Shown here piece after piece: positions 50,430 through 54,910 of a stretch of DNA of 64,000 nucleotides. The notes under the pieces are model-generated. The model was not told where the DNA came from. It did not search any database and saw only the letters and a list, made by a program, of their open reading frames with translations. A program made the position numbers and the translations under genes. Origin of the DNA: Stagnihabitans tardus (lineage in GTDB: Bacteria > Pseudomonadota > Alphaproteobacteria > Rhodobacterales > Rhodobacteraceae); assembly GCF_009925085.1 (NCBI RefSeq), contig NZ_JAABNR010000002.1:1-64000 (forward strand). Reading direction: 5' to 3'. Positions within the stretch are counted from its first letter, which is position 1; each line of letters opens with the position of its first letter.

Positions 50430-51059
50430 CTACCAGCGCGCCAGCCGGGGGGCGAGAAGCGCGCCCAGTGCGGCGAGGCCGAGGACCGCCGCGTTATACC
50501 AGACCGCGACGAAAAGCGGGGAGTCGTCGGTGCAATGCAGGGCGTATAGCGTGGCCGCGATGCCGCCAGAGGCCAGGCCCGCCAGGGCTCCGGCCCGGGG
50601 CAGGTCGGTGGGGGCAGCGCGGCGCAGGAAGCCCAGGAAGACCGCGAGGGGGGCCAGGCCGATCAGCGTGACCAGGGCCAGGCAGGCCCAGTTGTGCTGG
50701 CCCATCAGGGCGGGGAACCTTGCCTCGGGCGGCAGGGTCAGTCCCTCGGCCAGGGCGCCCGCCATGAGCGCCAGGGCGACGAGCCAGAGCGCCCGCCCCG
50801 CACGACCTCCGGGCCGCGACAGGGCGCGCAAGAGGGGCAGCGCGGTCAGGGCGACCAAAAGCGCCATGCCCATCTTGAAGCCGAAACGCCATTGACCCAT
50901 GGCCGCGCCCAGATCGGCGCGCGGTGACAGAAGCGCCGCGAAGACCGTGAGCGCCAGGGCAATCCCGAGGCCAAGCGCCAGGGCCCAGCGGGCGCCGAAG
51001 CCCGGGCCCCGGGGGGCTGCATCCTCGGCCAATGCCTTGATCAGAGAGCGCGTCTCCAT
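50430..51059 (-). CDS. nrsF: NrsF-type membrane anti-sigma factor (DUF1109)
   Basis: This 209-residue protein has six hydrophobic helices and belongs to the DUF1109/NrsF family. In Caulobacter, NrsF holds the sigma factor SigF inactive at the inner membrane until metal stress. A short cytoplasmic N-terminus (METRSLIKALAEDAAPR) should hold the sigma factor. Cys residues sit in loops (QHNWACLALV and LYALHCTDDSPLF), and in the family cysteines are thought to matter for sensing. It starts three bases after the sigF stop. The adjacent promoters and the divergent bufferin operon agree with this role. Confidence 0.9.
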   Translation of the reverse strand: METRSLIKALAEDAAPRGPGFGARWALALGLGIALALTVFAALLSPRADLGAAMGQWRFGFKMGMALLVALTALPLLRALSRPGGRAGRALWLVALALMAGALAEGLTLPPEARFPALMGQHNWACLALVTLIGLAPLAVFLGFLRRAAPTDLPRAGALAGLASGGIAATLYALHCTDDSPLFVAVWYNAAVLGLAALGALLAPRLARW

Positions 51060-51062
51060 CGC

Positions 51063-51590
51063 CTAACCCCTTGCAAAATGGCGCGAAATCGCGGCCAGTC
51101 CCCGGTGCAGCGCCACCCGCACCGCCGTCTCCGTCATGCCCAGCACGCTGGCGGTTTCCGATATCGTCCGCCCCTCGACCGAGATCGAGGCGACCACCGC
51201 CTTCTGCCCCGGCCCCAAAAGCCCCAGGGCCCGGCCGATCTCGCGGTCCGACACCGTCTCGGCCTCGGGCTGCGGCAGGGTCTCGATGAAATCGCCGATG
51301 TCGAGCTCGACCCGGCGCCCCTTGCGGCGGAAAGCGTCGATCATCTTGTAACGCGCGATGGCATGGACCCAGGGCAGCACGGGTTGCCCCGCATCCCATG
51401 TGTCGCGCTTCAGATGGATGGCCAGCAAAGTCTCTTGCACGATATCCTCGGCCTCGGTCCCGATCTTGCGCCACAATGTCCCGCGCAATCGCCCGGCGAC
51501 GCGCTCCAGGAAATCGGCATAGGCCCGCTGGTCCCCGGCGATGGCAGCGCGCAGGGAGTGCGACAGGCTTTCTTCCAGGCCGTCCGACAT
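51063..51590 (-). CDS. sigF: extracytoplasmic-function sigma factor, SigF type
   Basis: This 175-residue ECF sigma factor has region 2 (RKIGTEAEDIVQETLLAIHL, then WVHAIARYKMIDAFRRKGRR, which melts the -10 box) and region 4 (GRTISETASVLGMTETAVRVALHRGLAAI, split here for clarity into HTH and tail). The pair with NrsF and the divergent DUF2282 operon identify it as SigF-like. I use the ATG at 51590 because AGGAGGG lies six bases before it. A promoter resembling the bufferin promoter lies just upstream, so it probably activates its own gene. Confidence 0.92.
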   Translation of the reverse strand: MSDGLEESLSHSLRAAIAGDQRAYADFLERVAGRLRGTLWRKIGTEAEDIVQETLLAIHLKRDTWDAGQPVLPWVHAIARYKMIDAFRRKGRRVELDIGDFIETLPQPEAETVSDREIGRALGLLGPGQKAVVASISVEGRTISETASVLGMTETAVRVALHRGLAAISRHFARG

Positions 51591-51611
51591 GCAGGCCCTC
51601 CTGTAACCCAA

Positions 51612-51636
51612 TACGAGGCGCAGGGGCGATTGTTAC
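51612..51636 (-). promoter_or_regulatory. ECF-type promoter of sigF
   Basis: On the minus strand GTAACA (51631-51636), a 15-base spacer and CGTA (51612-51615) form an ECF-type promoter about 22 bases before the sigF start. It resembles the SigF consensus GTAACC-N16-CGAA that I recall from Caulobacter. Confidence 0.6.
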
Positions 51637-51694
51637 ATCCCGCCCGCAGAAAAAGCCATGACGGTCACGACCGCGTGACAGCGCTGAAACCGGC

Positions 51695-51720
51695 GTAACG
51701 AAAGGGGCCCGGGCCGCGAA
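51695..51720 (+). promoter_or_regulatory. SigF-type promoter of the bufferin operon
   Basis: GTAACG (51695-51700), exactly 16 bases and CGAA (51717-51720) match the recalled SigF promoter GTAACC-N16-CGAA with one mismatch. It lies 50 bases before the BufA start codon, leaving an untranslated leader of roughly 45 bases with the ribosome site GGAGG at its end. Confidence 0.75.
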
Positions 51721-51770
51721 GTGGTTTGCAAGCGACCCACGACGGGCCGCTGATAACCGGAGGATACCAG

Positions 51771-52052
51771 ATGAACCGTTCGATCCTGACCCTGTCGCTT
51801 GCCGCTTCCCTGGCCGGGGCCCTTGCCGCCCAGGCCGCTCCGATGACCGAGGACCAGATGATGGGCATGGAGAAGTGCTATGGCATCGCGCTGAAGGGGC
51901 AGAACGACTGCGCCGCCGGGGCAGGGACGACCTGCGCGGGGACCTCGACCAAGGATTACGACGCCGCCGCCTGGAAGGCCGTGCCCGCGGGCACCTGCAC
52001 GACGATGAACGTCGAGGGCCACATGGGCATGCTGGAGCCGATGAAGAGCTGA
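51771..52052 (+). CDS. bufA: bufferin precursor peptide (DUF2282)
   Basis: This 93-residue protein has a Sec-type signal peptide ([20 protein letters not shown], cleavage near AQA-AP at residue 23) and four cysteines: Cys36, Cys47, Cys55 and Cys76. These lie in the DUF2282 pattern [22 protein letters not shown] and VPAGTC. Bufferins are exported peptides in which the BufB enzyme converts cysteines to heterocycles, and they chelate copper and help cells survive metal stress. The C-terminal tail is rich in Met with one His ([12 protein letters not shown]), which may add soft-metal ligands. GGAGGATACCAG precedes the ATG. It is the first gene of a SigF-type operon. Confidence 0.92.
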
Positions 52053-52058
52053 GGCCCT

Positions 52059-52084
52059 GGGGAGGCCCTGCCCCGGGCCTCCCC
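52059..52084 (+). terminator. stable hairpin between bufA and bufB
   Basis: A perfect 10-bp stem (GGGGAGGCCC and GGGCCTCCCC) with loop TGCCCC lies six bases after the bufA stop and 57 before the bufB start. No T run follows, so it is probably a partial attenuator or an RNA-stabilising stem that lets the peptide outnumber its enzyme. Confidence 0.6.
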
Positions 52085-52140
52085 CCTTCGCGCCGCAGAG
52101 GCTGCCCCGCCTCGACCCTTCCGACAAAGCCGGAGAGATC

Positions 52141-52959
52141 ATGTCCCTGCCCCCCGCCATCGGCCTTGGCCTGAAGCCCGCCCATTACGAGGTCATCCTC
52201 GAGACCCGCCCCGACCTTGGTTTCTTCGAAATCCATGCCGAGAACTATATGGGCGCGGGCGGTCCGCCCCATGCCTGGCTGGAACGGATCGCCGCGCTTT
52301 ATCCCCTGTCGCTGCATGGCGTCGGCCTCTCGATCGGGGGGGAGAGCCTGGACCCGGCGCATCTGGCCCGGCTGCGGCGGCTCGTCGACCGCTACAAGCC
52401 GGCGGAGTTCTCGGAACACTTGGCCTGGTCCAGCCATGGCGTCTTCTTCAACGACCTTCTGCCCTTGCCCTATACCGAGGCGACGCTTGCCCGTATCTGC
52501 AGCCATATCGACCAGGTGCAGGACGCCCTGGGGCGGCGGATGCTGCTGGAGAACCCCTCGACCTATGTGACCTTTGCGGAAAGCCGCATCGAAGAGACCG
52601 ATTTCCTGCGCGAGATCGTCAGGCGGACGGGCTGCGGGCTGCTTCTGGATGTCAACAACGTCATGGTGTCCTGCACCAACCAGGAGATCGACCCTTGGGC
52701 CTATCTCGACCGCTTCCCGATGGAGGCGGTGGGGGAGCTGCATATGGCCGGCCATGACGAGGATGACGGCGTGCTGATCGACGCCCATGCCAGCCCGGCC
52801 ACCCCCGGCGTGCTGGCGCTTTATGACCGGGTGCTGGCGCAGACCGGCCCCATGGCCACGCTGATCGAATGGGACAATGACGTGCCTGATTTCCCGACCC
52901 TGATGGCCGAGGCCGCGCGGGTGGCGCGTCACCTCGGCGCCCACGCGGAGGCGGCCTGA
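52141..52959 (+). CDS. bufB: BufB, multinuclear iron-dependent oxidase (MNIO, DUF692)
   Basis: This 272-residue TIM barrel is of the DUF692 family that modifies cysteines in metallophore precursor peptides. Expected metal-ligand segments are present in order: [10 protein letters not shown] (near residue 28), [19 protein letters not shown] (near 95), [14 protein letters not shown] (near 136), [20 protein letters not shown] (near 202), [10 protein letters not shown] and LIEWDNDVP. It should convert Cys residues of BufA using iron and oxygen. The BufC gene starts on the next base after its stop, the usual pairing. Confidence 0.93.
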
Positions 52960-53667
52960 ATGGATCACGCCTCTTTCGCGGCGGGGCTTCTGGGCGGCGC
53001 GGCGCCTGTGGGGATCTCTGACCCCGCGCGCTTTGCGATCTACCGCAACAATGTCCATGTTGGCCTTTTGGCCGCCCTCTCCGCGCGCTTTCCGGTGACC
53101 GAGGCAGTGCTGGGGCCCGCCTTCTTCCGCGAGGCCGCCCGGGCGTTTCTGCGGCAAAGCCCGCCCCTGACCCCGGTGCTCGCCGATTGGGGCGAGGACT
53201 TCCCGGACCACCTCTCCCACCTGGCCGAGGTGCCCGCCTATGTCCCAGACCTCGCCCGCCTGGAGGCCGCCTGGACCCGCGCCTATCACGCCGCCGATGC
53301 GGCGCCCCTGACGCTGGAGGGCCTCGCCAGCCTCGACCTCGACCGGGGGATGGCGCTGCATCCGGCGGCGCAGGTCCTGGCCTCGGCCTGGCCCGTGGGG
53401 CGCATCTGGGCGGCGCATCAGGGCAACACGGCGCAAGAACGGTTCAGCGGAGCCGATGCGGTGCTGGTGACGCGGCCTGCGCTTGCAGTCGGCGTCCATA
53501 TCCTGCCGCCTGCCGACCTCGCCTTCCTGGCCGCGCTGCAAAGGGGGCAATCGCTGGCCGATGCCGTCCCCGATGACCCCGGTTTCGACTTCGGCCGCGC
53601 GCTGATCGGACTGACCGCGCTGGGCGCTTTTGCCCAGGGCCCGCACCTTCAAGGAGACCCAAGATGA
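52960..53667 (+). CDS. bufC: BufC, partner protein of the MNIO enzyme (DUF2063)
   Basis: This 235-residue protein is of the DUF2063/HvfC-BufC family. The N-terminal domain shows RFAIYRNNVHVGLLAALSAR (near residues 24-43) and PVTEAVLGPAFFREAARAFL. The second half includes PAYVPDLARLEAAWTRAYHA (near residue 90) and a beta-rich C-terminal domain. It is thought to bring the leader or core of the BufA peptide to BufB. Its stop overlaps the DoxX start by four bases. Confidence 0.92.
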   Translation: MDHASFAAGLLGGAAPVGISDPARFAIYRNNVHVGLLAALSARFPVTEAVLGPAFFREAARAFLRQSPPLTPVLADWGEDFPDHLSHLAEVPAYVPDLARLEAAWTRAYHAADAAPLTLEGLASLDLDRGMALHPAAQVLASAWPVGRIWAAHQGNTAQERFSGADAVLVTRPALAVGVHILPPADLAFLAALQRGQSLADAVPDDPGFDFGRALIGLTALGAFAQGPHLQGDPR

Positions 53668-54104
53668 TGACCCGCGCCGCCCCCGTGCTGGAGCCCCTCG
53701 TGCCCCTCGGCCTGCGCCTGGCCCTGGCCTTCCCCTTCTTCTTCTCCGGCCTGACGAAATGGGACGGTTTCCTGACCCTCTCCGGCGGAGCGCGGTTCCT
53801 TTTTGCCTCGGAGTTCCGCCTGCATATCCTGGGGACGGAATATCCCTATCCCTTCCCGATCCTCGCCGCCCATGCGGCAGGGGTGGCCGAGATCCTGCTG
53901 CCCGTGCTCCTCGTCCTCGGCCTCGGGACGCGTCTGGCGGCGCTCGGGATCCTTGCCATGACGGCGGTGATCCAGTTGACCGTGCCGGAGGGTTGGGCCA
54001 ATTTCCACCTGCCCTGGGCGGCCATGGCCCTGGCGCTGGTCCACTTGGGCGCGGGGCCTCTCAGCCTGGACCGGCTGCGCGCGGGCCTTGCGCGCACCGC
54101 ATAA
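53664..54104 (+). CDS. DoxX-family membrane protein
   Basis: This 146-residue protein has four hydrophobic helices with the DoxX pattern LRLALAFPFFFSGLTKWDGF at its start and AHAAGVAEILLPVLLVLGLG in the middle. DoxX proteins occur as the last gene of many bufferin-type operons, and the function there is unclear, perhaps in thiol redox balance or quinone chemistry. The start could be 53664 or the next ATG at 53667. AAGGAG lies a few bases upstream. It ends the probable operon. Confidence 0.9.
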   Translation: MMTRAAPVLEPLVPLGLRLALAFPFFFSGLTKWDGFLTLSGGARFLFASEFRLHILGTEYPYPFPILAAHAAGVAEILLPVLLVLGLGTRLAALGILAMTAVIQLTVPEGWANFHLPWAAMALALVHLGAGPLSLDRLRAGLARTA

Positions 54105-54142: not shown

Positions 54143-54910
54143 ATGTCAGACCGCGATTCGCTCGATCGGGCCTATGCAAATTCCGCCCATATCCCCGGTG
54201 GCGCGGACTATCCCGCCCGCTGGGACCGCGAGGCCCGCGCCTTCCGCGCCACGGCTCGAAGCGAGCTTGGCCTGGCCTATGGCAGCGGCGAAGGTCAGGC
54301 TCTGGACCTCTTCCTGCCCGCACAGGCGCCCCGGGGCCTGGTCGTCTTTATCCATGGCGGCTACTGGATCGAGGGCGGGCGGGAGTATTGGTCGCACCTT
54401 GCGGCGGGAGCGGTCGCGCGGGGCTGGGCCATGGCGCTGCCCTCCTACACGCTCGCACCCAAGGCCCGGATCGCCCAGATGACGGCAGAGGTCGCGCAGG
54501 CCGTGGCCACCGCCCGGGCGCGCGTGCCTGGCCCGGTCGTCGTCACGGGCCATTCCGCCGGAGGCCACCTGGCCGCGCGGATGGCCTGCCTTTCGGCGCT
54601 GGAGCGTGTGGTCCCGATCTCTCCGCTGGCCGATCTTGGCCCCATCGCCGGGACCTCGATGAACGACCTTCTGCATCTGGACGCCGCCGAGATCGCCGCC
54701 GAGAGCCCCTGCCTGTCACGCCCCCTGGCCCCCGCCCACGTCTGGGTCGGCGCCCAAGAGCGGCCTGCCTTCCTCTGGCAGGCGCGGCTTCTGTCCGAGG
54801 CCTGGGCCTGCCCCTGGACGCCCGAGCCCGGGCGCCACCATTTCGACATCGTCGAGGGGCTTTGCGATCCCGCATCGCCCCTGATGCAGACCCTTATCCC
54901 CGCAGCTTGA
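54143..54910 (+). CDS. kynB: alpha/beta hydrolase, probable kynurenine formamidase
   Basis: This 255-residue alpha/beta hydrolase has the HGGYW oxyanion motif (VVFIHGGYWIEGGREYW, near residues 66-82) of arylformamidases, the nucleophile serine in VVTGHSAGGHLAARMA (near 137) and the final histidine in EPGRHHFDIVEGL (near 233). It would hydrolyse N-formylkynurenine to kynurenine, the step after tryptophan dioxygenase, whose gene lies at 56572. It lies 38 bases after the DoxX gene on the same strand, so it could be part of the bufferin transcript, but the function fits the aromatic cluster. Its end overlaps the CoA ligase end by 17 bases. The symbol is functional only, because the KynB proper family is different. 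Confidence 0.72.
   Translation: MSDRDSLDRAYANSAHIPGGADYPARWDREARAFRATARSELGLAYGSGEGQALDLFLPAQAPRGLVVFIHGGYWIEGGREYWSHLAAGAVARGWAMALPSYTLAPKARIAQMTAEVAQAVATARARVPGPVVVTGHSAGGHLAARMACLSALERVVPISPLADLGPIAGTSMNDLLHLDAAEIAAESPCLSRPLAPAHVWVGAQERPAFLWQARLLSEAWACPWTPEPGRHHFDIVEGLCDPASPLMQTLIPAA

Follow-up and report, generated by a model that had tools for sequence, protein, structure and literature searches.

The SigF-NrsF pair of Caulobacter crescentus (CC3253-CC3252) controls the bufferin 1 operon CC3254-CC3257 through GTAACC-N16-CGAA promoters, and NrsF holds the regulon at its basal level through two cysteines (PMC3511200). The regulon is induced by Cr and Cd (PMC3511200). Copper also induces it, and mutation of sigF renders cells sensitive to Cu, although not to Cr or Cd (PMC8224329). 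In Sinorhizobium meliloti, the RpoE7-EcfR7 pair faces SMb20530-SMb20527, for which a table names DUF692 and DUF2063, and overexpression of RpoE7 induces the operon that encodes it as well as the four-gene homologue on the opposite side (PMC6180224). The promoters listed for these operons contain GTAACATCGCTCCCGGTGGCTGCGAA on the buf side and GTAACAAGTAGCGAAACTCGGCGAA on the sigma side; Cd, Cr and H2O2 elicited no response from them, and no inducer was found (PMC6180224). Sigma and NrsF genes are listed among the components of Buf1 clusters (PMC12452194), and bufferin 1 binds Cu. The GIG operons of Cupriavidus and Legionella respond to gold and copper.

The locus analyzed here belongs to Stagnihabitans tardus, and the window is the whole 64,000-nucleotide stretch of DNA in which it lies. 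It shares its genes, its promoter consensus and the two NrsF cysteines with the Caulobacter system. However, the Caulobacter regulon adds a second buf operon and msrPQ, whereas the genome here has one DUF2282 gene, one NrsF gene and one MNIO gene, so that the system can be tested in it without paralogues. The locus resembles the S. meliloti RpoE7-EcfR7 (ECF16) locus in its divergent six-gene layout, in the presence of both motifs and in the spacers of 15 (sigma) and 16 (buf) bases, but the sigma promoter carries CGTA here and CGAA in S. meliloti. The GIG operon is, by its description, of the same general kind. The sequence-only reading had given as background that SigF-NrsF controls DUF2282/DUF692/DUF2063 genes in Caulobacter and that bufferins are copper-binding modified peptides; the former was upheld by the published regulon (PMC3511200) and the latter by published bufferin chemistry. 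Control of a bufferin operon and of sigF itself by SigF is thus well supported by homology and is not new, having been published for close homologues, and the locus leaves the existing view of bufferin control unchanged.

Gene content and layout

A sigF-nrsF pair had been proposed to face a BufA-BufB-BufC-DoxX operon, and this was borne out by the open reading frames and Pfam domains of all six genes (Table 1). The genes are arranged in two operons that point away from each other, with nrsF and sigF read from the minus strand and bufA-bufB-bufC-doxX from the plus strand. The sigF and nrsF genes are 3 bases apart. On the plus strand 88 bases separate bufA from bufB, bufB and bufC are 0 bases apart, and the last 4 bases of bufC are shared with doxX.

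Table 1. Features of the sigF-nrsF and bufferin operons (positions in the window)
Feature	Position	Strand	Predicted product or description	Evidence
nrsF	50430..51059	-	anti-sigma membrane protein; cysteines at 126 and 176	Pfam NrsF 2.5e-49
sigF	51063..51590	- (ATG at 51590)	ECF sigma factor, ECF16-type by homology	Pfam Sigma70_r2 and Sigma70_r4_2; NF009165 above cut-off
SigF-type promoter of sigF-nrsF	51612..51636	-	GTAACA-N15-CGTA	read directly; equivalent site at 108/132 loci
SigF-type promoter of buf operon	51695..51720	+	GTAACG-N16-CGAA	read directly; equivalent site at 53/64 loci
bufA	51771..52052	+	DUF2282 (Buf1) bufferin precursor with Cys 36, 47, 55 and 76	Pfam DUF2282 8e-25
hairpin	52059..52084	+	10-bp GC-rich RNA hairpin right after the bufA stop	fold z -2.1; stems of at least 8 bp at 48/63 loci
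bufB	52141..52959	+	MNIO bufferin maturase	Pfam MbnB_TglH_ChrH 4e-102; NCBIfam MNIO_BufB above cut-off
bufC	52960..53667	+	DUF2063 partner protein	Pfam DUF2063 1e-21
doxX	53664..54104	+	DoxX-family membrane protein	Pfam DoxX 1e-15

The regulatory genes were assigned to the SigF-NrsF (ECF16) type, in that an ECF sigma factor with regions 2 and 4 is followed by an NrsF-family membrane protein with two conserved cysteines, and GTAAC-type promoters precede sigF as well as the target operon. The NrsF protein scored far above the Pfam cut-off, but its score of 91 bits was below the 300-bit cut-off of a narrow NCBIfam equivalog. The target operon was assigned to the Buf1 type, with the MNIO maturase BufB, the DUF2063 partner and DoxX encoded together on one strand and with all four cysteines of BufA invariant in 14 relatives. 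The 24 N-terminal residues of BufA resemble a Sec signal peptide, a putative assignment judged from the sequence. BufB was related to PDB 3bww and to MbnB, while a single-sequence search found no PDB match for BufC.

The hairpin that follows bufA recurs in related loci: stems of at least 8 bp were present there in 48 of 63, as opposed to only 9.6% of random stretches from the same loci (controls not matched for G+C). A clear T-run is usually missing beside these hairpins. Their likely role is partial termination or protection of the mRNA, either of which would give an excess of precursor over enzyme.

An alpha/beta hydrolase gene (54143-54910) starts 38 bases past doxX on the same strand, and its co-transcription with the operon is possible. 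Its orthologues within the genus have different neighbours.

Conservation of the two promoter motifs

Both promoter motifs lie exactly, to the base, where the sequence-only reading had placed them. Across the whole genome (4.59 Mb), 20 sites match GTAACN{15,17}CGWA, and half of these (10/20) have spacers of 15 or 16 bases. Two of the 10 fall in the gap between sigF and bufA, each pointing at the right gene; from the other 8 genomic sites, about 1.6e-4 sites per strand would be expected in this 180-base gap.

The motifs were then followed in related loci. The sample consisted of NrsF-bearing loci of the same family and of SigF relatives found in named genomes, most of which were Hyphomicrobiales; a query with NrsF alone found no relatives in the named genomes, and SigF alignment was used instead. 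The loci were annotated by means of profiles derived from the proteins of the window together with their relatives in the family, and a motif was counted when it had a spacer of 15 or 16 bases and lay at most 220 bases upstream of the start. By this count the SigF motif preceded sigF at 108 of 132 loci and bufA at 53 of 64, while its density elsewhere in the same DNA was 0.0105 per kb per strand, a background in which some sites resemble real extra targets. Among the 56 loci with divergent sigF and bufA, 41 had both motifs, 15 had one and none lacked both. These loci share ancestry, and the counts are not independent events, although the sample spans many genera and several orders. The comparison confirms, over more than 100 loci, that bufferin operons keep a SigF code of two promoters. 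A rival explanation, in which both motifs arose by chance and a housekeeping or another sigma factor drives the operons, is highly improbable, because the motif is rare in the genome and is kept at both genes in the relatives; the conservation across the 132 loci already contradicts it.

The form of the sigF promoter seen here was common elsewhere, with CGTA in 18 and a 15-base spacer in 27 of the 108 sigF promoters, and both features are therefore ordinary variants. On the other hand, 11 of the 64 bufA loci had no strict upstream match, which counts against the proposed switch and indicates that the motif definition is incomplete. The sixth base of the -35 element differed between the two genes, being A in 87/108 sigF promoters and G in 32/53 bufA promoters, a difference of uncertain significance given that the rows are related. 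Here this base is A on the sigF side and G on the bufA side.

The proposed switch, its inducer and its targets

We consider it highly likely that the locus encodes a self-amplifying SigF-NrsF (ECF16) switch that controls a Buf1 bufferin copper operon. It is very probable that SigF activates its own gene as well as the bufferin operon, since relatives keep the motif in both places and the same arrangement was demonstrated in S. meliloti and Caulobacter. By analogy with homologues, from which the sigma and anti-sigma action, the inducer, the chemistry, the copper binding and any role of DoxX are taken, the switch would work as follows. Without stress, membrane-bound NrsF would retain SigF; such sequestration and its release by metal stress have been demonstrated in Caulobacter only. 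A metal, most likely copper, with Cr, Cd or some other thiol-seeking ion as possible alternatives, would act at or near the two NrsF cysteines and free SigF. Free SigF would then transcribe sigF-nrsF from GTAACA-N15-CGTA and bufA-bufB-bufC-doxX from GTAACG-N16-CGAA. The MNIO enzyme BufB, together with BufC, would convert the two central cysteines of BufA to thiooxazoles, and the modified BufA would be exported by Sec and bind copper in the periplasm.

Inducers vary among homologues, as the unresponsive S. meliloti promoters illustrate, and this variation counts against the copper switch. The locus might instead be a metal or redox stress module whose main inducer is not copper but a different agent such as gold, chromate, hypochlorous stress or thiol stress of another kind, with copper binding by BufA being secondary. 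The induction of the Caulobacter regulon by Cr and Cd, the response of the GIG operons to gold as well as copper, and the S. meliloti homologue for which no inducer was found all favour such a module. Against it stand the sensitivity of Caulobacter sigF mutants, which extends to Cu and to neither Cr nor Cd, and the binding of Cu by bufferin 1; we regard a non-copper inducer as unlikely.

The locus had also been read as a self-contained module. The part in which SigF drives the bufferin operon and itself stood, with the motif conserved at both promoters and with precedents in S. meliloti and Caulobacter, whereas the closure of the regulon was a possible and weakly supported claim. A search of the genome for further GTAAC sites with spacers of 15 or 16 bases, which that reading had proposed, returned 8 outside the gap, none of them shown to be conserved; this search used the strict motif only. 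Given that extra targets occur in a relative and in Caulobacter, a regulon confined to this one locus is no more than a possibility. The regulon might be open as in Caulobacter, with SigF also acting here on genes elsewhere through weaker or variant motifs, and we give this somewhat less than an even chance. Caulobacter SigF also governs genes beyond the adjacent operon, the motif stands before an MsrB-like gene at a locus of the same genus (L085), and the 24 of 132 sigF loci without a strict motif suggest that variants may exist. In this genome the strongest of the other motif sites, an exact GTAACC-N16-CGAA, lies 17 bases upstream of an HODM-like gene. However, the motif was absent at 12 orthologue loci, and this gene was rejected as an extra target. 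An msrP-like gene was likewise rejected, near matches at its locus being no commoner than chance. The single copies of the DUF2282, NrsF and MNIO genes also argue against an open regulon.

Of the remaining genomic sites, one lies 133 bases upstream of a Ppx/GppA gene, and several fall within long open frames.

Origin of the switch and SigF-linked genes in relatives

SigF of the window was 60-66% identical to many proteins of the Mesorhizobium lineage, compared with 37-52% to SigF proteins of its own family. In the SigF tree it grouped with Hyphomicrobiales, outside the supported family clade, and NrsF likewise fell outside the family clade in its own tree. Concatenation of SigF and NrsF also placed the pair outside this clade (SH-aLRT 100), and an AU test against joining the family gave p = 0.043, for a group that was chosen after the trees were seen. 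A family-type SigF was present in four genomes of the same genus (L085, L107, L108 and L109). It is likely that the switch was either transferred or survives as an old second lineage, and acquisition of SigF and NrsF by transfer is possible, on moderate evidence from the trees. The position of the window's BufB was poorly supported, and transfer of the whole module therefore cannot be claimed. The flanking genes showed no synteny across 12 loci of the same genus, so an empty insertion site could not be demonstrated.

A broader reading, which we put forward tentatively and think rather doubtful, is that SigF-NrsF is a portable switch that takes its own promoter code from one alphaproteobacterial order to another and is joined to varied metal-binding exported peptides, namely bufferins here and NPCAA- or MXKDX-repeat peptides in relatives. 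The present locus would then combine a Hyphomicrobiales-type source with a one-locus regulon.

In three loci of the same family, the SigF motif lies upstream of Cys-rich exported peptides with NPCAA repeats (L096, 6352-6378; L098, 792-818; L099, 3120-3146). These are sigF-nrsF loci without bufferin genes, and the DNA retrieved around them yielded no BufB homologue. Two of the NPCAA-repeat peptides were tested and gave no NCBIfam match. They may represent a further class of metal-binding peptide under SigF control.

Many Mesorhizobium genomes (L112-L125 and similar loci) keep sigF-nrsF and its own promoter, with neither bufferin genes nor a second motif nearby. In two Mesorhizobium loci (L149, 4857; L130, 4850), a motif divergent to sigF precedes Met/Lys/Asp-rich, apparently exported proteins with a few cysteines; the L149 protein, a match to TIGR02953 (MXKDX pentapeptide repeats), occupies the bufA position. 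These SigF-linked Cys- and Met-rich peptides of relatives are little studied and were brought to attention by the comparison of loci. In other loci (L085, 4273, and L086, 4274; L067, 6235, and L068, 4290), of which L085 belongs to the window's genus, the motif adjacent to sigF precedes either an MsrB-like protein that is apparently exported or a CcdA/DsbD-like membrane protein, both judged by sequence alone.
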